Position numbers and translations under genes: made by a program. DNA of 64,000 bases from Rhodobacteraceae bacterium HLUCCA08 (lineage in GTDB: Bacteria; Pseudomonadota; Alphaproteobacteria; Rhodobacterales; Rhodobacteraceae): NCBI GenBank assembly GCA_001314655.1, contig LJSF01000044.1, forward strand, positions 62,001-126,000, in the 5' to 3' direction. This document shows positions 46,626-56,833 of this stretch, in pieces (positions within the stretch are counted from its first letter, which is position 1; each line of letters begins with the position of its first letter). Below the pieces are notes generated by a model. It saw nothing but the letters and a program-made list of their open reading frames with translations. It had not been told where the DNA came from and ran no database searches.

Positions 46626-47240
46626 CTACAGCCCGCCCAGTTCGGCCAGCAGGGCGGCGACCTCGTCCACCCCTTGCCCGTGGCGCAGCGCGGCAAAGAC
46701 CACCGGCAGATCGCCGCGCATCCGCGCCGCATCGCGGGCCATCACATCCAGCGAGGCGCCGACATGGGGGGCCAGGTCGGTCTTGTTGATCACCAGGATG
46801 TCCGACCGGGTGATCGCCGGGCCGCCCTTGCGGGGGATCTCTTCTCCGGCGGCGACGTCGATGACATAGATCGTCAGGTCGGCCAGTTCCGGGCTGAAGG
46901 TCGCCGACAGGTTGTCGCCGCCCGATTCGATCAGGATCAGCTCAAGCTCCGGGTGCCGGTCACGCATCCGCGCCACCGCGGCCAGGTTGATCGAGGCATC
47001 CTCGCGGATCGCGGTATGGGGACAGCCGCCGGTCTCGACCCCCATGACCCGGTCGGCGGGCAGGATCTGCATCCGCATCAGCGCCTCGGCATCCTCCTGG
47101 GTGTAGATGTCGTTGGTGATCACCGCCAGGCTGTGGCGGTCCTTGAGCGCATTGGCCAGCCGCGCGGTCAGCGTGGTCTTGCCGGCGCCGACCGGGCCGC
47201 CGATACCGACCCTGAGCGGGCCATTGGGGGAGGGGGACAT
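46626..47240 (-). CDS. ureG: UreG, GTPase for urease nickel insertion
   Basis: UreG hydrolyses GTP during transfer of nickel to the UreC active site. The 204-residue protein has P-loop [10 protein letters not shown] (11-20), [13 protein letters not shown] with the metal Cys-Pro-His, [17 protein letters not shown] and NKTDLA. Two starts are possible: ATG at 47246 touches the AAGGA ribosome site, while ATG at 47240 has ideal spacing and gives the family-like start [15 protein letters not shown], so I chose the latter. It is the last gene of the leftward urease operon. Confidence 0.94.
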
Positions 47241-47258
47241 GGGCATTCCTTTCGTCGT

Positions 47259-47678
47259 TCACGCCGCCGCGGTGCCGGCGAAGGCCAGCATCATGTAGCC
47301 GATCCCCAGCGCCCCGCAGAGCGGGCCGTAAAGCCGCTCGTCCAGCCGGCGGAAGGGCTGTTCGGGGGTCGCGGCCTGGAACGGGGGCGCATAGGCCAGC
47401 ACCGCGCGCAGCTGGAACACCAGCGCGATCGCGACCAGCCCGGCCTTGCGCCCCGGCCCGGGCGGGAACCAGGGCCAGGCGGCGGCGAACAGCAGCGCGA
47501 CCACGACCAGCGCGGTGGGCACCGGCCCCGGCATCCTGGTGATCCCGCGGGCGCCGACGACGGCGCGGGCCAGCCGGGCCTCGTCACGGATCGGAAACCA
47601 CCAGCCCAGCGCCCAGAGCAGGTGAATGGCGGCGATCACCACCAGGATCGCCGACATCAGGAAGGCCAGCGGCATCAT
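47259..47678 (-). CDS. DUF3995-type small membrane protein
   Basis: The 139-residue protein has four hydrophobic segments, starting MMPLAFLMSAILVVIAAIHL and including LVVVALLFAAAWPWF. It looks like DUF3995 proteins of unknown function. Its start overlaps the ureF stop (ATGA), so it is translated with ureF, and it ends 18 bases before ureG. A role in nickel or ammonia passage is only suggested by location. Confidence 0.75.
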   Translation of the reverse strand: MMPLAFLMSAILVVIAAIHLLWALGWWFPIRDEARLARAVVGARGITRMPGPVPTALVVVALLFAAAWPWFPPGPGRKAGLVAIALVFQLRAVLAYAPPFQAATPEQPFRRLDERLYGPLCGALGIGYMMLAFAGTAAA

Positions 47679-48322
47679 GACCGGAAGATCCGCGGCTGCA
47701 GCGCCTCCTGGCACATGCCGGCGATATCGGCGGCGAGGGTGGCGCTGCCCAGGTCGTCGAGGCCCAGCCCCGGCGCCTGTTGCGCCAGCCGCGCGATCAG
47801 CGGCGCCAATCCGTGCAGCACCCTTTGCCCGGCGGTCTGGCCCAGGGGCATCAGCCGCAACGCCGCCTGGACCAGGTTCGAGGCCACGGATTGCAGCCAC
47901 AGCGCCAGCACCGGCGCGACCGGCAGGCCGGCCAGCCGCGCCGCCCGGCCGACGGCGACCGGAAAGGCCATGTCGGGCAGGTCCAGCCCCCAGACCGCAC
48001 GGGTGCAGGCGGCGAAGGCCGCGCCCTGTTCGCGCGTCTCGGCCGCCCGGGCGGCGGAGGGGGCGAGCGCCGCGGCCAGTTCGGCAAGGTCTGCCAGGTC
48101 GTCGCCCTCGGCCCGCCAGGCGCAGGCCAGCAGGATCGCGTCATTGCGGCCCGACCCGTGCTCCAGCACACCGGCCAGCCAATCGGCCAACCCCGCCGCA
48201 TCGGTGACCTGACCCTCGGCCACCGCCGCCTCCAGGCCCTGCGACCAGGCGAAGCCGCCCACCGGATAGGCCGGCGACAGCCATTGGCCCAGGGTCAGAA
48301 GCTCAGCCGTGGGCGGGGTCAT
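47675..48322 (-). CDS. ureF: UreF, urease accessory protein
   Basis: UreF bridges UreD and UreG on apo-urease. The 215-residue protein has LGQWLSPAYPVGGFAWSQGLE near the start and SVASNLVQAALRLMPLGQTAGQ in the second half. I set the start at ATG 48322, inside the last codons of ureE, because the 28 residues an ATG at 48406 would add (runs of Thr and Ile) are only the His-rich ureE tail read in another frame. Overlap with ureE is 20 bases. Confidence 0.92.
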   Translation of the reverse strand: MTPPTAELLTLGQWLSPAYPVGGFAWSQGLEAAVAEGQVTDAAGLADWLAGVLEHGSGRNDAILLACAWRAEGDDLADLAELAAALAPSAARAAETREQGAAFAACTRAVWGLDLPDMAFPVAVGRAARLAGLPVAPVLALWLQSVASNLVQAALRLMPLGQTAGQRVLHGLAPLIARLAQQAPGLGLDDLGSATLAADIAGMCQEALQPRIFRS

Positions 48323-48863
48323 GATCGTGATCGTGGGCGTGGGGGTGATCGTGGGCGTGATCGTGGCCATGATCGTGATCGTGGGCGTTGCCGTGATCGT
48401 GGTCATGGCCGTGGGAATGCCCCATCACCCGGCCGGTGCCATAGGCGCCGCCTTCGGGGTCGAAGGGGGCGGTCACGTCGCGCAGGCTGGCCCCCAGCCC
48501 GTCCAGCATCTGCCGCAGCACCTTGTCGCGGCGGATCAGCAGCCGGTCGCCGTCCACCTGGCAGGGCGCATGGCGGTTGCCGATATGCCAGGCAAGACGG
48601 GCCAGGGCCGCCCCGCGCACCTCGATCAGCGGTTCCTCGGCGGCGGCCACCGCCACCCGGCGGCCATCCGCCAGCGCGAAGGCATCGCCGGCGGCCACGC
48701 CCGTGGTCTGGGCCAGGTCGACCAGAAAGGCGGTGCCGTCCCCGGCCACCAGCCGCCGCCGGCGCAGCAGCCTTGCGTCGTGATCCAGCGCGATCACCGG
48801 ATCGTCCGGCCGCGCGCCGCCGGCCAGAACCGCGCGGGCCACGGCGCCGTCAGGGCCCGACAT
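48303..48863 (-). CDS. ureE: UreE, nickel-binding metallochaperone with long His tail
   Basis: UreE stores and donates nickel to the urease assembly complex. The 186-residue protein has LAWHIGNRHAPCQV with the conserved His of the metal site near residue 97, LGASLRDVTAPFDPEGGAY, and a C-terminal tail of about 38 residues (149-186) with about 17 histidines alternating with Asp. Its start overlaps the secreted protein upstream by 14 bases. Confidence 0.94.
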   Translation of the reverse strand: MSGPDGAVARAVLAGGARPDDPVIALDHDARLLRRRRLVAGDGTAFLVDLAQTTGVAAGDAFALADGRRVAVAAAEEPLIEVRGAALARLAWHIGNRHAPCQVDGDRLLIRRDKVLRQMLDGLGASLRDVTAPFDPEGGAYGTGRVMGHSHGHDHDHGNAHDHDHGHDHAHDHPHAHDHDHDPAHG

Positions 48864-49449
48864 GCAGCGCCTCCAGCACGAAGATATCGGGGCGCGCCAT
48901 CGACCCGTCCTGCCAACTGGTCAGGAACGAGACGCCCAGATCGGGGAAATACAGCATCCCCTCGGTATGGCTGCCGTCGATATAGCTGTAGACGATCTCG
49001 CCCGGGATCACCTGGTAGGTGCAGTCGCCGAAGCGGCGCTCCTCGAGCGCGCCCCAGCTTTGAACCTGCCGTTCGGGCGCCGTGTCGGGGCCCGAGGTGA
49101 CCTGATAATCGGCCTCCCAGGACAGGCCCGGTGTCGGCTCCGGCAGATCCGTCGGCGCCATGCCGTAATCGAACAGCCGCAGGCTTTCGAGGTCGGGCGC
49201 CCCGTCCCAGACATCCATCAGCTGCAGCAGATGCACGCCCCGGGCATAGACATTGTTGCCGCCGAAACCATGCGGGAACCGGACGATCGCGCGGACCGTG
49301 CCGGGTTCGCCGGCGATCAGGAAATCCGAGGCCCCGTCGGCATGCGTCATCGTGATCCCGGCGCCGGACAGGTCATCGGCGGTCGGGCATTCGGCCAGGG
49401 CGGGGCCGGTCCACAGCGCCAGGGCCAGGGCGGACAGGCGCGGGGTCAT
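48850..49449 (-). CDS. Secreted protein of unknown function in the urease operon, copy 1
   Basis: The 199-residue protein has a signal peptide (LALALWTGPALAEC) and the same layout as the protein encoded directly upstream (49446-50078): a CPTADDLSGAGI start after cleavage, FGDCTYQVIPGEIVYSY in the middle, and FPDLGVSFLTSWQDG then FVLEAL near the end. No catalytic motif is recognised. It is linked to its paralogue by an ATGA overlap and to ureE by a 14-base overlap, so it is fixed in the operon. Its periplasmic location is at odds with cytoplasmic urease. Confidence 0.82.
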   Translation of the reverse strand: MTPRLSALALALWTGPALAECPTADDLSGAGITMTHADGASDFLIAGEPGTVRAIVRFPHGFGGNNVYARGVHLLQLMDVWDGAPDLESLRLFDYGMAPTDLPEPTPGLSWEADYQVTSGPDTAPERQVQSWGALEERRFGDCTYQVIPGEIVYSYIDGSHTEGMLYFPDLGVSFLTSWQDGSMARPDIFVLEALHVGP

Positions 49450-50078
49450 GGCGCCACCGCCCGGATCGCCAGGATCTCGTAATTGTCCGGATCGGGGAAA
49501 TCAATGTCGCGCCAGCTGGCGACATGGGCAAGGCCGAGGGCCGGGAAATACCACAGCTCTTCCTCGCCCCAGCCGTCGTCGCCGAATTCGTAGCGCGCGG
49601 TGCCGCGCAGAACCTCGAGCGTGCAATCGCCGAAGGTCATCTGTTCGGCGGTCGCGGCCCAGCCCTGTTTCATCGTCTCGGTATCGACGCGGTCATAGCC
49701 GGACCAGTGATCCGACGCGTAGATGCCGTAGCTGGTCTGCCAGATCAGGCCCGGCGCCGGCACCGGCATTTCGGCCGCCGGTTCGCGAAAGGCGTAATTG
49801 GTGCTGTCCTGCAAGGCCGGGAGCCCGCCGTTGATCGGTGCGGCCAGCATCAGGTTCACCCCCTGGCCAAGCATTTGCATCGCCTGGTAGCCACCGGCCT
49901 CTTCGCGCTGCAAATGCACCACATGGGGCCCGGCGGCGCGGAAGGTGGCGGTGACACCGCCGGATTCCTCGATCACGATCCCGCCCGCGGCCAGATCGCC
50001 CGTCTCGGGGCAGCGTGCCATGGCCGGGCCGCCCAGGAGGATCGCGGCGCCCACCGCGGTAAGGGTTGCCTGGTGCAT
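49446..50078 (-). CDS. Secreted protein of unknown function in the urease operon, copy 2
   Basis: The 210-residue protein has a signal peptide (LTAVGAAILLGGPAMARC) and the paralogue pattern CPETGDLAAGGI, FGDCTLEVLRGTARYEF, YFPALGLAHVASWRDID and YEILAIRAV. Its ATG has GAGGTC upstream. It lies 33 bases after ureC. The two conserved cysteines (one after the signal peptide, one in FGDC) probably form a disulfide. Nothing in the sequence tells the function. Confidence 0.82.
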   Translation of the reverse strand: MHQATLTAVGAAILLGGPAMARCPETGDLAAGGIVIEESGGVTATFRAAGPHVVHLQREEAGGYQAMQMLGQGVNLMLAAPINGGLPALQDSTNYAFREPAAEMPVPAPGLIWQTSYGIYASDHWSGYDRVDTETMKQGWAATAEQMTFGDCTLEVLRGTARYEFGDDGWGEEELWYFPALGLAHVASWRDIDFPDPDNYEILAIRAVAP

Positions 50079-50111: not shown

Positions 50112-51824
<1,713 letters not shown>

Positions 51825-51837
51825 CGCGGGTCCCCTG

Positions 51838-52053
51838 TCAGGATGATCGGGCGCCGGGCCGCAGGGCGCAGGGCGCGGTCAGGTGCAGGCCGCGCGCCAG
51901 GCAATCGGCGCAGAAATAGCCGCAGCCGGCCTTGGCCCAGAGGGTTTCGGGCCGGGGCGCGAGGGCCGCGCCGCATCCGTCGCAGCGCAGGTCGGCATAG
52001 AGTTCGGCCAGCCGCACGGACGAGATTTCGAACAGTTCGGGCGTTGCGGCCAT
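51838..52053 (-). CDS. Small zinc-ribbon protein in the urease operon
   Basis: The 71-residue protein has two Cys pairs, CDGC (about 24-27) and CGYFCADC (44-51), that would bind one zinc. It sits 13 bases upstream of ureC and one base downstream of the 104-residue gene. I do not recognise its family. Translation starts at 52053, where GAGGGGG lies upstream. A metal-handling or scaffold role in urease assembly is only inferred from position. Confidence 0.75.
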
Positions 52054-52054
52054 G

Positions 52055-52369
52055 TCAGAGCCCCCTCGGACCGGCCTTGGCCAGGCGCCTTGCATTGCTG
52101 CGCGTCTTGCGCCGGACCGGGGCGATGGCGGCGGCCAGCACGGCCGGGGCGGCGGCGCCGCGCAGCAGCGCCTTGTGCGTATCGGTCAGGCTGCGCGTCG
52201 CGGCCCAGACCTTTTCGGCCACCATGCGCTGCCGTTCGGCCGGCGGCAGGGTCCAGACCCCGGCCATCCCCATCATCCGCAGCGCGATCACCGCCTGCGC
52301 CTCGGCCAGGGTCAGGCTCCATTGCATCATCGCGCCCCAGTAGTGATGCGGCATCGGTATCCCGCGCAT
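52055..52369 (-). CDS. Small Met-rich helical protein in the urease operon, function unknown
   Basis: The 104-residue protein is rich in Met, Ala and Arg and probably helical: WSLTLAEAQAVIALRMMGM, then a basic tail (RRKTRSNARRLAKAG). Proteins of this kind are scattered through Rhodobacteraceae genomes, with no function known to me. Its start overlaps the ureB stop (ATGA). Amphipathic helices and the basic end would suit binding to a surface such as a membrane or nucleic acid, but nothing proves it. Confidence 0.72.
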   Translation of the reverse strand: MRGIPMPHHYWGAMMQWSLTLAEAQAVIALRMMGMAGVWTLPPAERQRMVAEKVWAATRSLTDTHKALLRGAAAPAVLAAAIAPVRRKTRSNARRLAKAGPRGL

Positions 52370-52677
52370 CAGCCCAGCCCCCCCATGACCTGCCCGTTGA
52401 AGCCGAAGACCCTGCGCGCCCCGCGCAAGGGGATGAGGCTCACCTCGCGGCGCTGGCCCGGTTCGAACCGCACCGCGGTGCCTGCGGCGATGTCCAGCCG
52501 CATGCCCCGCGCGGCGGCGCGGTCGAATTCCAGCGCCGGGTTGGCCTCGGCGAAATGGTAATGGCTGCCGACCTGCACCGGGCGGTCGCCGGTATTGGCG
52601 ACCATGAGCGTGATCGCCTCGGCGCCGGCGTTCAGCTCCAGCGCGCCGGGCGCCGGGATCACCTCTCCGGGGATCAT
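52369..52677 (-). CDS. ureB: Urease beta subunit
   Basis: UreB is one of the two small structural subunits of urease. The 102-residue protein has [55 protein letters not shown] and [11 protein letters not shown], all typical. The ATG at 52677 overlaps the stop of the small membrane protein upstream (ATGA). Confidence 0.96.
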
Positions 52678-52850
52678 TTCAGCCACCGGTAAAGGGCGAT
52701 CAGCCCCGCCGACACGGCGACCAGCGCCGCGGCGACCCAGGTCGCGCTGCCGGCGGCCTCCTCGACATGCATATGCGGCAGGCCGGCCTCGTGGGCCGCC
52801 GCGCGGCCGGCGATCAGGACGGCGGGAACGGTCAGGGCGATACGTTGCAT
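52674..52850 (-). CDS. 58-residue membrane protein between ureA and ureB
   Basis: This small gene is easily missed. Strong AAGGAGA lies before the ATG at 52850 and the stop overlaps the ureB start (ATGA). The product has an N-terminal hydrophobic segment ([12 protein letters not shown]), then [12 protein letters not shown] with four metal-capable histidines in nine residues, and a C-terminal membrane segment [20 protein letters not shown]. If it goes through the membrane, the His segment would face the periplasm. Nickel binding or permease contact is a reasonable guess, not shown. Confidence 0.78.
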
Positions 52851-52892
52851 GTTGCGTCTCCTTCGGACAGGGGCGCCGGGCCGGGGCCCGGA

Positions 52893-53195
52893 CTACCGGA
52901 TCGGGTTGTGGACGGTGACCAGCTTGGTGCCGTCGGGAAAGGTCGCCTCGACCTGGATGTCGTGGATCATCTCGGGCACGCCCTCCATGCACTGGTCGCG
53001 GCGCAGGACATGGGCACCGGCCTCCATCATGTCGGCCACGCTGCGCCCGTCGCGGGCGCCCTCGACCACCGCATCGGTGATCAGCGCCACCGCCTCGGGA
53101 TGGTTCAGCTTCACCCCCCGCGCCAGCCGCTTGCGCGCCACTTCGGCGGCCATGGCGACCAGCAGCTTGTCTTTCTCGCGCGGCGTCAATTGCAT
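52893..53195 (-). CDS. ureA: Urease gamma subunit
   Basis: UreA is the smallest urease subunit. The 100-residue protein shows [45 protein letters not shown] and a C-terminal [12 protein letters not shown]. It follows ureD by five bases. Length and sequence are normal. Confidence 0.96.
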
Positions 53196-53200
53196 GTGGT

Positions 53201-54022
53201 TCAGAGCCTCCAGACCTTGGGCAAGGGCGCCGTGCCCAGCGCTTCGATCATCGGGATCAGCCGGGCGCGCAGGGCATGGCCATCCGCGGCCAGCACCCGG
53301 GCGAACAGCACATCCTCGCGCGGCAGGCTGACGCCGGCGCCGGGGCCGCCGATCTCGCCCAGCCGGGCACGCGCCGCCGCCGCCCCGGGCCCGGCAAACA
53401 GGACCGAGGCCATCGCCCCTGCCCCGCCGCCCAGCACCGGGCGCGCCATCTGCGCCTCAAGGTCGCCGGCCAGGCGCAAGGCATCGGCAAAGACCAGCCG
53501 GCCATCGCGGCGCAGTTCCCAGCGTTCGGCCAGGGCGGCGTCGCGGCAGCGTTCGCCCATGGCGCGACGGCCCAGCACCAGCGGCTCGACGATCAGCGCC
53601 GTGGCCGCGCCATCCAGCGCCACCGTCATCCGCCGGCGCAGGGCGGCGCCATCGTAAAGGATCGTCTCCTGCGGCAGCCAGTGCAGCGCGGCGCCGCGCA
53701 CCTCCAGCGTGACCGCGACCTCGGCCCGGCCGCCGGCGGCGCGATAGGCGCGCTCGGCCGCCTGGGTGGTGACCGTCACCGGGCCGCCGCCTGTCACCGT
53801 GATCTCCTGGCCGATCCGGTCGCCGCCGGTCAGCCCGCCGGCGGTGTTCAGCGTCACCATTTCCGGCGCCGGGCGCCCGCCGGGAAACAGCGCCCTCAGG
53901 CATCCCTCCTGGCGCAGCCGCTCCAGCCCGGCCGGGCCGAACCGCGCCAGCACCCGGCCCCGGGCGCGGGGCGGCGTCACGGGCGCCGGGGCATCGGGCG
54001 CGGGGATCGGGGACAGCATCAT
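53201..54022 (-). CDS. ureD: UreD, urease accessory protein
   Basis: UreD binds the apo-urease and docks UreF-UreG. The 273-residue protein has [32 protein letters not shown] and a [18 protein letters not shown] stretch, and ends KVWRL. I set the start at ATG 54022 ([10 protein letters not shown]); the preceding frame is low-complexity and has no coupling to another gene. It is the first gene of the urease operon, so the promoter must lie in the gap 54023-54310 or beyond. Confidence 0.92.
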
Positions 54023-54310
54023 GGGCCGGACGTTCCCAAGCTGTCGTGGCGCGGACCAGCCCAAGCCGGCGCCTGCGCCGGCGCGAACCGCGACAGACGC
54101 CCCCGAAATCCCACCGATTGGGCGGATCGCCCAAAAAAGCGGCGCGCGACGAACGGGCGCCAGTACCGTCGCGCCCCGGGCCCGACCCGGGGCCTCCACC
54201 AGCCGTTCCCCGGGGGACCGGACCGGCGGGAGGTCCCGGGTCAAGCCCGGGACGGGCTGTGCGAGGCCGACCGGACCACGCATCGCCCGCCGGCGGCCCG
54301 GACCGATGCG
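54023..54310. other. Non-coding gap upstream of ureD with several palindromic repeats
   Basis: No gene is seen in 54023-54358. The stretch holds three perfect inverted repeats: 54065-54082 (GCCGGCGC-CT-GCGCCGGC), 54173-54193 (GCCCCGGG-N5-CCCGGGGC) and 54233-54253 (GTCCCGGG-TCAAG-CCCGGGAC). The last one looks like a short dispersed intergenic element common in alphaproteobacteria. The urease promoter should be in here, but I cannot point to convincing -35 and -10 boxes. Confidence 0.6.
54233..54253. repeat. Palindromic intergenic element
   Basis: GTCCCGGG-TCAAG-CCCGGGAC, an 8-bp stem with a 5-nt loop. The sequence, with the TCAAG loop, matches my memory of REP-like elements spread through alphaproteobacterial intergenic regions. 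Only one copy was seen in this window. Confidence 0.5.
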
Positions 54311-54358: not shown

Positions 54359-56650
54359 TCAGATCGAGGGGTTGTCCATCCGGATCTTCACCCGGACCTC
54401 GCCCTTCACCGGCTCGGGCCAGATCAGCCGAACCTGGGTGTTGTCCGGCCCGAAGGCCGGGTCGACCGCCGGCATCGCATGGACCGGCTGGCCGGCGGCG
54501 TTGGTGACGGTCTGGATCGGCACCAACGCCTCGACCACCCGCGCCCAGCCGCCGAAGGGCAGCGCGGTGCCGGTTTCGACCACCCAGATGTCATCCTCGG
54601 TCGACTGGGCATGGACCACCGACAGCGGGTTGCGCACCTCTTCGTCGATCCCGTTGAAGATATTGCCCTCGAAGGTGATGTTGCGCATCCGGGTATAGTC
54701 CAGATCGGCGAAGGTGGTATCGACCCGCTCGATCCGGTCGATCCGGGTGTTGAGCGTGCGGAAGACGTTGTGCGACACCGTCAGCCCGGCGATGAACTGG
54801 CCCTCGCCATAGGGTTTCACGACGATCCAGTTGAACCAGTCCTCGCTGTCGATCACGACGCAGATATTGCCCGTCACCGTCAGGCCGCCGAACCCGAATT
54901 CATTGCCGAAATCCGGCGACGCATCGTGTTCGTTGGTCCATTCGATGAAATTGTTGTCGATGTAATTGCCGCAGATCGTGGTCATGCAATTGCTCAGCGT
55001 CAGGATCAGCCCGCCGCGCCGGATGCCCAGCAATTCGTCGTCGCCGCCATACCAGTGGTTGCCGGTGATGACGCTGCCCGATCCGCCGAGCACGGCAAAG
55101 GCCTTCCAGCGGGCGACGACATTGTCGCGCAGCTTGACGTCGTTGGCATTGGCGTTGAGCGCGATCGAGGTGCGGTTCTGGACCGGCTCGGCCTGTTCCT
55201 TGGAATTGAACATGCAGCGGTCGATCATCATCCCCTGGCAGCCCCGGCCATGGCTGGTGACCCCCCGGTCGGCGCAGCGCTGGAAGGTGCAGTCGCGGAT
55301 CCGGTTGATGATCCCGTCGGGCGGCAGCAGGATGCCGCTGGCCAGGCCATTGCACTGGAACTCGATATCGGCCAGTTCGAACTGGCTGAGCTTGGAAAAG
55401 CCCGACAGGTCCAGCAGGTACTTGAACCGGGTGAAGGTATAGACCTGGGTGCCCTGGGCGTCGTAAAGCGGGGCCGACAGGGCGATGGTCTGGGCCGCGG
55501 CATTGACCGAGGTGACATAGACCTCGCGGCCGACGCCGTTGCCCTCGACCAGGCTGCCGGGGGCGATCGCGCCGGCATTGACCACCCCGGTCAGCCGCAG
55601 CGGATCGCCGATGCTGTAGGCGGCCTGGCTGGTGACCACGTCCGGCGCCCAGGCCGGGCTTTCCATCGCTTCGAGCTGGCCGTTGCGGATCACCCGGCGG
55701 ACCTCGAACTGGGCCTTGTTGGCGACCGCGGCCTGCACGTCGACCGGCCCGGTCAGCGCGATCCGGCGGCCGTTCAGGTCCAGGCTTTCATGGTCCGAGA
55801 AATTCAGCAGCGCCTGCACCGCCTTGCGCAACGCCAGCTCTTCGTCGCCGAAGGCATCGACATAGGTGGCATAGTCGAAATTCTTCTGAAAGATCAGCAT
55901 GTGCTGATCGTCCATCGTGACCCGGCCCTCGAACCGGACCTGGTTTTCGAAGGTCACGTTCTGGCCCAGGAAATAGGTCCCGGCCGAGACCAGCACCTCG
56001 CGCCCGCCGGCGGCGTCATCGGCGGCTTCGAAAGCGGCGCTGTCATCGGTGACGCCATCGCCCCGGGCGCCGTAATCGCGCACGTCGACGACGCCGAACA
56101 TGTCGCGCAGAAAATAGCCGGTGACATCCTCGATGCGCAGGTCGTCGATGCGCACCACCCCGCCATTGGCGCCGGTCAGATCGAGCCCGATATGGCCATA
56201 GGCCGCCCCGGTCCAGACCATGTCGACCCCGGCGCGCGGGCCGGTGCCGATGATCGCGCGGATCTCGACCACGTCACCATAGGAGGTCAGCTGCGTCTCG
56301 GGCCCGGTCTGCACCGCGCCGGCCAGGTTGGCGCCGCCGGGCCGGGCGGCATAGCCCGCGATCCGCACCGCCGGCAGCGCGCCGCCCACCGCCTTCACCC
56401 GCGCCGTGACCTGAAGGTAGACGCCGGGCAGGATCGGGGTCTGGGCCATGTAGCGCAGCTTTTGCGTGGCTTGCGTCTTGAGGATTTCCAGGCAGCCGGC
56501 GAAATCCTGGTCGGCGGGCAGGTAAGAGCCGCTGCCCGAGCCCGCATAGGTATCCGATCCGGGCGTGCCGTCGCCGCTCGACCAGACGTCCAGCCCATCG
56601 GCAAAGGGGGCGGGCATCAGCTCCAGCCCCTGGGTAATCACTACGTTCAT
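54359..56650 (-). CDS. Right-handed beta-helix protein, GH28/pectate-lyase-3-like
   Basis: The 763-residue protein has an N-terminal beta domain (1-180) starting MNVVITQGLELMPAPFADG, then VVDVRDYGARGDGVTDDSAAF (about 190-210), the pectate_lyase_3 signature, and a beta-helix with Asn-rich turns such as ALNANANDVKLRDN and VSHNVFRTLN. It lacks a signal peptide. I recall alike proteins annotated as glycosyl hydrolase family 28-related in Rhodobacteraceae. Whether it cuts or only binds a polysaccharide is open. AGGGGA precedes the ATG at 56650. It stands alone, flanked by the terminator and a 183-bp gap. Confidence 0.8.
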   Translation of the reverse strand: MNVVITQGLELMPAPFADGLDVWSSGDGTPGSDTYAGSGSGSYLPADQDFAGCLEILKTQATQKLRYMAQTPILPGVYLQVTARVKAVGGALPAVRIAGYAARPGGANLAGAVQTGPETQLTSYGDVVEIRAIIGTGPRAGVDMVWTGAAYGHIGLDLTGANGGVVRIDDLRIEDVTGYFLRDMFGVVDVRDYGARGDGVTDDSAAFEAADDAAGGREVLVSAGTYFLGQNVTFENQVRFEGRVTMDDQHMLIFQKNFDYATYVDAFGDEELALRKAVQALLNFSDHESLDLNGRRIALTGPVDVQAAVANKAQFEVRRVIRNGQLEAMESPAWAPDVVTSQAAYSIGDPLRLTGVVNAGAIAPGSLVEGNGVGREVYVTSVNAAAQTIALSAPLYDAQGTQVYTFTRFKYLLDLSGFSKLSQFELADIEFQCNGLASGILLPPDGIINRIRDCTFQRCADRGVTSHGRGCQGMMIDRCMFNSKEQAEPVQNRTSIALNANANDVKLRDNVVARWKAFAVLGGSGSVITGNHWYGGDDELLGIRRGGLILTLSNCMTTICGNYIDNNFIEWTNEHDASPDFGNEFGFGGLTVTGNICVVIDSEDWFNWIVVKPYGEGQFIAGLTVSHNVFRTLNTRIDRIERVDTTFADLDYTRMRNITFEGNIFNGIDEEVRNPLSVVHAQSTEDDIWVVETGTALPFGGWARVVEALVPIQTVTNAAGQPVHAMPAVDPAFGPDNTQVRLIWPEPVKGEVRVKIRMDNPSI

Positions 56651-56833
56651 CAGGTCCCCTTTCCGGGCGACGGCCTGCGCGCCGCACCCATGTCCACCAC
56701 CGCGCCGGACGCGGCGCGAATGCGGGCACAGGGGTATGGGACGGGGGTAAAGGCGCCCTTGGAGCACCGTTCGGTGGGGGCCTGCGGGGCGCAACGCGGC
56801 GGGGGCGCCGGGGCGGCGGCGCCTCAGCCCGGC

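Follow-up and report, generated by a model that had tools for sequence, protein, structure and literature searches.

The window, a stretch of 64,000 nucleotides from contig LJSF01000044.1 of Rhodobacteraceae bacterium HLUCCA08, harbors a urease operon on the minus strand in which ORF calls place two genes for exported-looking proteins, S1 (49446..50078, 210 amino acids) and S2 (48850..49449, 199 amino acids), wedged between ureC and ureE. Pfam matches give the gene order ureD-ureA-ureB-[104 aa]-[85 aa]-ureC-S1-S2-ureE-ureF-DUF3995-ureG. At the upstream end, an ORF with an internal true start contains ureD (53201..54283; PF01774, residues 144-335) and is followed by ureA for the urease γ subunit (52893..53195; PF00547), an ORF in which the UreB subunit occupies about residues 105-207 (52369..52992; PF00699), an ORF of 104 amino acids with a weak, sub-cutoff phasin match (52055..52369), an ORF of 85 amino acids with two CxxC pairs to which no family matched (51838..52095), and ureC for the urease α subunit (50112..51824; PF00449 and PF01979), immediately upstream of S1. 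On the other side of the pair lie ureE, encoding the nickel metallochaperone with a His-rich tail (48303..48863; PF05194 and PF02814), ureF (47675..48406; PF01730), an ORF with a DUF3995 membrane protein (47259..47900; PF13160, residues 86-201) whose true start is probably the ATG near ORF residue 75, and ureG (46626..47246; PF02492, cobW/HypB/UreG). An exported-looking β-helix gene (54359-56794; PF12708) is found beside ureD on the same strand. Relatives of the 104-residue ORF recur in other ure operons, and a DUF3995 gene between ureF and ureG recurs in other genomes.

The genes are tightly packed, as the earlier note on this DNA had described: the ureC ORF ends at 50112, which leaves 33 nt between its stop and the start of S1, S1 shares 4 nt with S2 (49446-49449), and S2 shares 14 nt with ureE. 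Consensus scans of the region found no promoter-like sites and only a chance-level number of terminator-like sites, including one where ureC ends.

A search of the genome with S1 retrieved S2 as the sole other match (E = 1.1e-23, about 31-32% identity). The two proteins are also sisters (SH-aLRT 90) in a tree of 101 S proteins built with a 'quick' method, one of the 102 distinct full-length members having been dropped by an E-value cut. Their description as paralogues thus holds, and the pair looks as if it arose by duplication in place, with strong divergence afterwards. The N-terminus of both proteins is hydrophobic, and an AxA-like site directly precedes the first of two invariant cysteines. 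The putative signal peptides comprise residues 1-21 in S1, where the invariant residues are Cys23 and Cys152, and residues 1-19 in S2, where they are Cys21 and Cys143. According to a crude script (not SignalP), 99 of the 102 relatives possess the hydrophobic N-terminal stretch and 89 of the 102 an AxA-like site at this position, which agrees with the signal peptides proposed earlier. A lipoprotein identity was rejected for S1 and S2, in which Arg and Glu, respectively, directly precede the conserved cysteine; a lipobox-like motif occurs in 7 of the 102 relatives, not always at that cysteine.

Cys21 and Cys143 (S2 numbering) are kept in all 102 proteins, and 91 of these have exactly two cysteines beyond residue 12. 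Since both cysteines are invariant, they may well form a disulfide. Other strongly conserved positions in the 102 proteins are occupied by Gly, Pro, Asp26, Tyr and Leu. In the same set neither His nor Met nor any acidic cluster is conserved, and the two cysteines are the only invariant residues that could bind a metal. Mature S1 and S2 are acidic, with a calculated pI of 4.2-4.3. The open frames recur in many genomes and the S genes have a GC3 of 0.83-0.86, so they look coding.

No match to S1 or S2 was found in Pfam, NCBIfam, PADLOC or PHROGs. A profile search against PDB sequences returned only chance-level matches (for example HypA, E 1.3), which were discarded. A single-sequence search with S1 found relatives in 27 of 295 genomes of Rhodobacteraceae, its own genome counted, and a profile of 19 S sequences gave 107 matches in 81 of 394 genomes of this family. 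In a class-wide sample the profile matched only its own genome (1 of 240), and in a phylum-wide sample it matched two of 150, namely its own genome and, weakly, a genome of the same family. Plasmid records searched with one S relative as query gave no match. As far as sampled, S thus appears to be confined to Rhodobacteraceae, and the sequences indicate a fast-evolving family of putatively exported proteins that is absent from the family libraries searched. The 14 S loci in named genomes include those of Albibacillus kandeliae, Seohaeicola zhoushanensis, Rhodosalinus halophilus, Salipiger pentaromativorans, Antarctobacter heliothermus and Maliponia aquimaris, all of which we take to be Rhodobacteraceae (Roseobacteraceae in some schemes). 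The earlier remark that no urease accessory of this kind has been described is in line with the literature on urease operons that was searched, in which the family is not described, although a description in subscription journals is possible; the passages on urease gene clusters in PMC10608839, PMC6209633 and PMC3141670 do not mention it.

The position of S next to urease genes recurs. Of the 107 profile matches, 49, in 43 genomes, lie on the same strand as ureC and 3-1689 nt downstream of it, 28 of them within 150 nt, as compared to about 0.02 matches expected that near ureC by random placement. Gene maps showed that the ureC-linked copies always occupy the slot between ureC and ureE, as is also seen in 11 of the 14 loci in named genomes, and among the 102 distinct proteins mapped no urease-linked S was found elsewhere in the operon. 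The label UreB>S>UreE at one locus (L139) is an artefact of an over-long start; ureC adjoins S there as well. Fifty-four of the 102 proteins are urease-linked, one of them by DUF3995 only, and 48 are without a detected urease neighbor. Some copies that are not among the 49 stay with downstream urease genes away from ureC, in the order S-ureE-ureF-(DUF3995)-ureG in genomes G331 (L066) and G149 (L095) or as S-ureE in G221 and G040, and in G324 S is found behind a partial UreC. The possibility that homologues occur mostly outside urease operons, which the earlier note had named as fatal to its proposal, thus turned out to be about half true: 58 of the 107 matches lie out of reach of any ureC and nearly half of the mapped proteins have no urease neighbor, yet 28 of the 39 closest matches (E <= 1e-30) are next to ureC.

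Co-occurrence was also compared at the level of whole genomes. The ureC gene is present in 308 of the 394 genomes of Rhodobacteraceae and in 70 of the 80 other genomes that carry S. All 36 genomes with an S match at E <= 1e-30 contain ureC, as compared to 272 of the 358 others (p 1.7e-4). This adds little, because 25 of the 36 are already linked by position, and the chance of finding ureC in all 11 strong-match genomes that are not so linked is about 0.07.

Most urease operons of the family do not contain S. The order ureC-S-ureE was expected to be conserved in Rhodobacteraceae and it does recur, but the profile finds S near ureC in only 43 of the 308 ureC-bearing genomes, so the word 'fixed' used earlier for the place of the two genes in the operon does not apply. 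A congener of the source organism (G295) has ureABCEFG without S; its ureC is 79-80% identical and its ureE nearly abuts it. Two further genomes of the genus have no ureC match, and one of them (G080) has a weakly matching S relative at another locus (E 3e-8). Among 40 sampled ureC-bearing genomes that were negative with the profile, two carry an S between ureC and ureE that is more divergent (L171 and L160; in L160 the first-listed match looks antisense and the second ORF of the slot was judged by eye to be the divergent S), two have no ureE within 3.5 kb, and many have only 48-150 nt from ureC to the ureE match. Many other S-less slots are taken up by a single short ORF or a pair of them (about 68-107 amino acids) with a C-terminal motif in common (L141, L142, L147, L149-L151, L153, L159, L161, L165, L167, L169, L172, L174, L176); two of the four that were scanned match DUF1127 below the cutoff (E 0.027 and 0.1). 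A lipoprotein-like ORF (L155) and a 274-residue ORF (L175) are found in further slots. In view of the profile counts, the sampled slots and the congener, the operon without S is the usual state. Since close relatives keep urease with intact-looking operons that lack S, it looks like an optional companion of urease and not a part required to build the enzyme. The same distribution, including the situation in G295, argues against a place for S in the urease maturation machine: like a maturation accessory it is encoded in the operon, yet it is not present in essentially all such operons. The other known proteins of urease operons are cytoplasmic or located in the inner membrane. S shares the operon with them but is optional and, judging from its N-terminus, exported.

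Urease-linked and unlinked S proteins are not scattered at random over the tree. The label 'urease-linked' changes 17 times, as compared to 33.7 changes after shuffling, and none of 500 shuffles gave a number as low, a statistic to which near-copies and shared descent contribute. Deep relations in the tree are unsure, since 43 of the 98 inner branches are open. Tandem pairs of S occur in six genomes, and in L125 (3655-5491, minus strand) the ureC/ureE slot holds three tandem S genes, successive ones abutting or overlapping. Some of these tandem copies are recent (the L127 pair, support 99) and others deep (L121, L122, L125). The S genes are thus one to three extra genes per urease operon in some marine-type bacteria.

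Homologues of the β-helix gene are found upstream of ureC in six genomes (G132, G018, G314, G032, G050, G284). Such a homologue immediately precedes S in G257 and G159 and is separated from it by one gene in G165, with no urease genes at these sites (L064, L067, L068). The S proteins of these three genomes cluster in the tree with S of genomes that do have urease at that site, and all three genomes keep ureC elsewhere or have a ureC piece at a contig end. Most simply read, S was left behind when the urease genes departed, which would make these likely relict sites; the arrangement in G257 and G159 in particular suggests that S can outlive its urease operon. A separate tree group of nine S proteins is located beside other, non-urease genes.

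AlphaFold2 models built from 16-row alignments are all-β for both S1 (pLDDT 90.5, pTM 0.83) and S2 (pLDDT 92.3, pTM 0.84), the regions of low confidence being chiefly the putative signal peptides. The predicted fold is an unclosed β-barrel or 'β-spiral' of about 13 strands. The best solved folds for both models are 4fvs (Z 9.4 for S2 and 9.8 for S1), YmcC (2in5; 9.0 and 9.9), 3fzx (8.7 and 9.0) and EipB (6ntr; 8.5 and 7.6), followed by LolA and RseB, on a scale where a best Z of 7-8 is typical even without a clear match. Foldseek also ranked 2in5 first (E 4e-4, TM about 0.43). The YmcC/GfcB-like lipoproteins (2in5, 3fzx, 4fvs) are exported, as S is predicted to be, and align over whole domains of 151-163 residues, but identity is only 6-11%, two of the three PDB titles say lipoprotein whereas S has no consistent lipobox, and the corresponding Pfam family matches neither S1 and S2 (E <= 10) nor 16 family members (E <= 1). 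Brucella EipB (DUF1849) is a periplasmic unclosed β-barrel or spiral, the shape predicted for S, but it is larger, shares 4-8% identity with S, and the DUF1849 profile likewise gave no match to S1 and S2 (E <= 10) or to the 16 members (E <= 1). According to PMC10787603, EipB is a 14-strand spiral whose loss causes sensitivity to envelope-disrupting compounds, and its gene lies near bamA, whereas the loci of S are urease operons or other sites. LolA and RseB/MucB fall into the general class of half-open β-barrels that the models suggest for S (Z 5-6.5, LolA about 6), but these values are within the range of unrelated β-proteins and sequence similarity was not found; LolA, RseB and avidin-like folds were set aside as too weak matches, and a missing fold match was given no weight as evidence. 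Because even the best Z scores are at the upper edge of those for unrelated β-proteins, we do not claim membership of S in the YmcC or EipB families. A common fold with either says nothing about the function of S.

The reading that we put first, tentatively and with well short of even confidence, is that S is an optional, disulfide-bonded periplasmic β-spiral protein that is co-expressed with urease and probably serves the envelope while urease runs. S1 and S2, a pair that would go back to local duplication, would be read from the ureDABC-EFG transcript and be coupled to ureC and ureE by the short gaps and overlaps, so the proteins would be exported when urease is made. In the periplasm S would be soluble, with one disulfide holding the β-spiral, and would most likely bind an amphipathic ligand or a client in the envelope, outside urease maturation. 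The setting may be the ammonia and alkali with which urea hydrolysis loads the cell. Almost as likely, ranking just below, S is a hitchhiker to which a permissive ureC/ureE slot gives expression and which has a general envelope role unrelated to urease. Slots without S that are variously short or filled with other ORFs fit such a passenger, as do the 48 proteins without a urease neighbor, the 17 label changes on the tree and the S genes left beside the β-helix gene in G257 and G159. A mere passenger would be harder to reconcile with a urease link that is far above chance across deep branches, with the copies that remain with ureE where ureC is elsewhere, and with the lack of urease-linked S in any other slot. 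We regard it as doubtful that S is functionally tied to the cytoplasmic urease, having been recruited repeatedly to the ureC/ureE slot, duplicated and diversified, and now guarding or tuning the envelope against ammonia and alkali.

The earlier note had considered likely a periplasmic task linked to urea, ammonia or nickel. An accessory that feeds urease by binding nickel or urea or by aiding an importer is suggested by the location of S next to ureE, the nickel chaperone gene, and by genome G145, where S and then DUF3995 are found behind genes for a ZnuA/ABC-3 type metal importer, with no urease there. Transport genes were compared between 40 of the 43 genomes with ureC-linked S and 40 S-less ureC-bearing genomes taken by handle order, with G056 left out of the latter because it holds a divergent S. 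UrtA was found in 33 of 40 genomes with S and 31 of 40 without (p = 0.78). HupE/UreJ was nominally commoner with S (18 of 40 as compared to 11 of 40), a difference that is not significant (p = 0.16). The lack of these associations and of conserved metal ligands disfavors a supply role, and most urease operons, including the one of the same genus, have no S; we therefore consider such an accessory unlikely. Still less probable is a periplasmic stress sensor or regulator of the RseB/MucB type, which would sense envelope lipids or misfolded proteins and adjust an anti-sigma factor: RseB and MucB domains do appear among the fold matches over some 130 aligned residues, but at a Z of 5-6 that unrelated β-proteins also reach, and a casual look at the neighbors of S noticed no sigma or anti-sigma gene. 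The second domain of RseB is presumably missing from S.

Few bacterial enzymes have been studied as thoroughly as urease, whose operons are generally understood to provide the structural subunits, maturation factors that act in the cytoplasm, and transporters. An optional family of putatively exported proteins that recurs in this operon would connect urea use with the envelope, in a concrete way open to testing, across a large bacterial family. Should S prove to be a hitchhiker, the ureC/ureE junction would be a slot for gene trading, which is useful for reading these operons.

Several genomes carry both urease-linked and non-urease S. Non-urease S genes were found beside a 311-residue gene without a Pfam family at seven loci (L070, L071, L073, L074, L075, L076, L080). 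At these loci acyl-CoA dehydrogenase-like genes are often near, as presumably are dnaB- and pyrC-like genes. In Maliponia aquimaris (L188, 4474-5810 and downstream) ureC is present in two overlapping pieces (85%, then 63%), UreE is weak, UreF and UreG were not found, and the S ORF is intact; genome G322 has a similarly split ureC.
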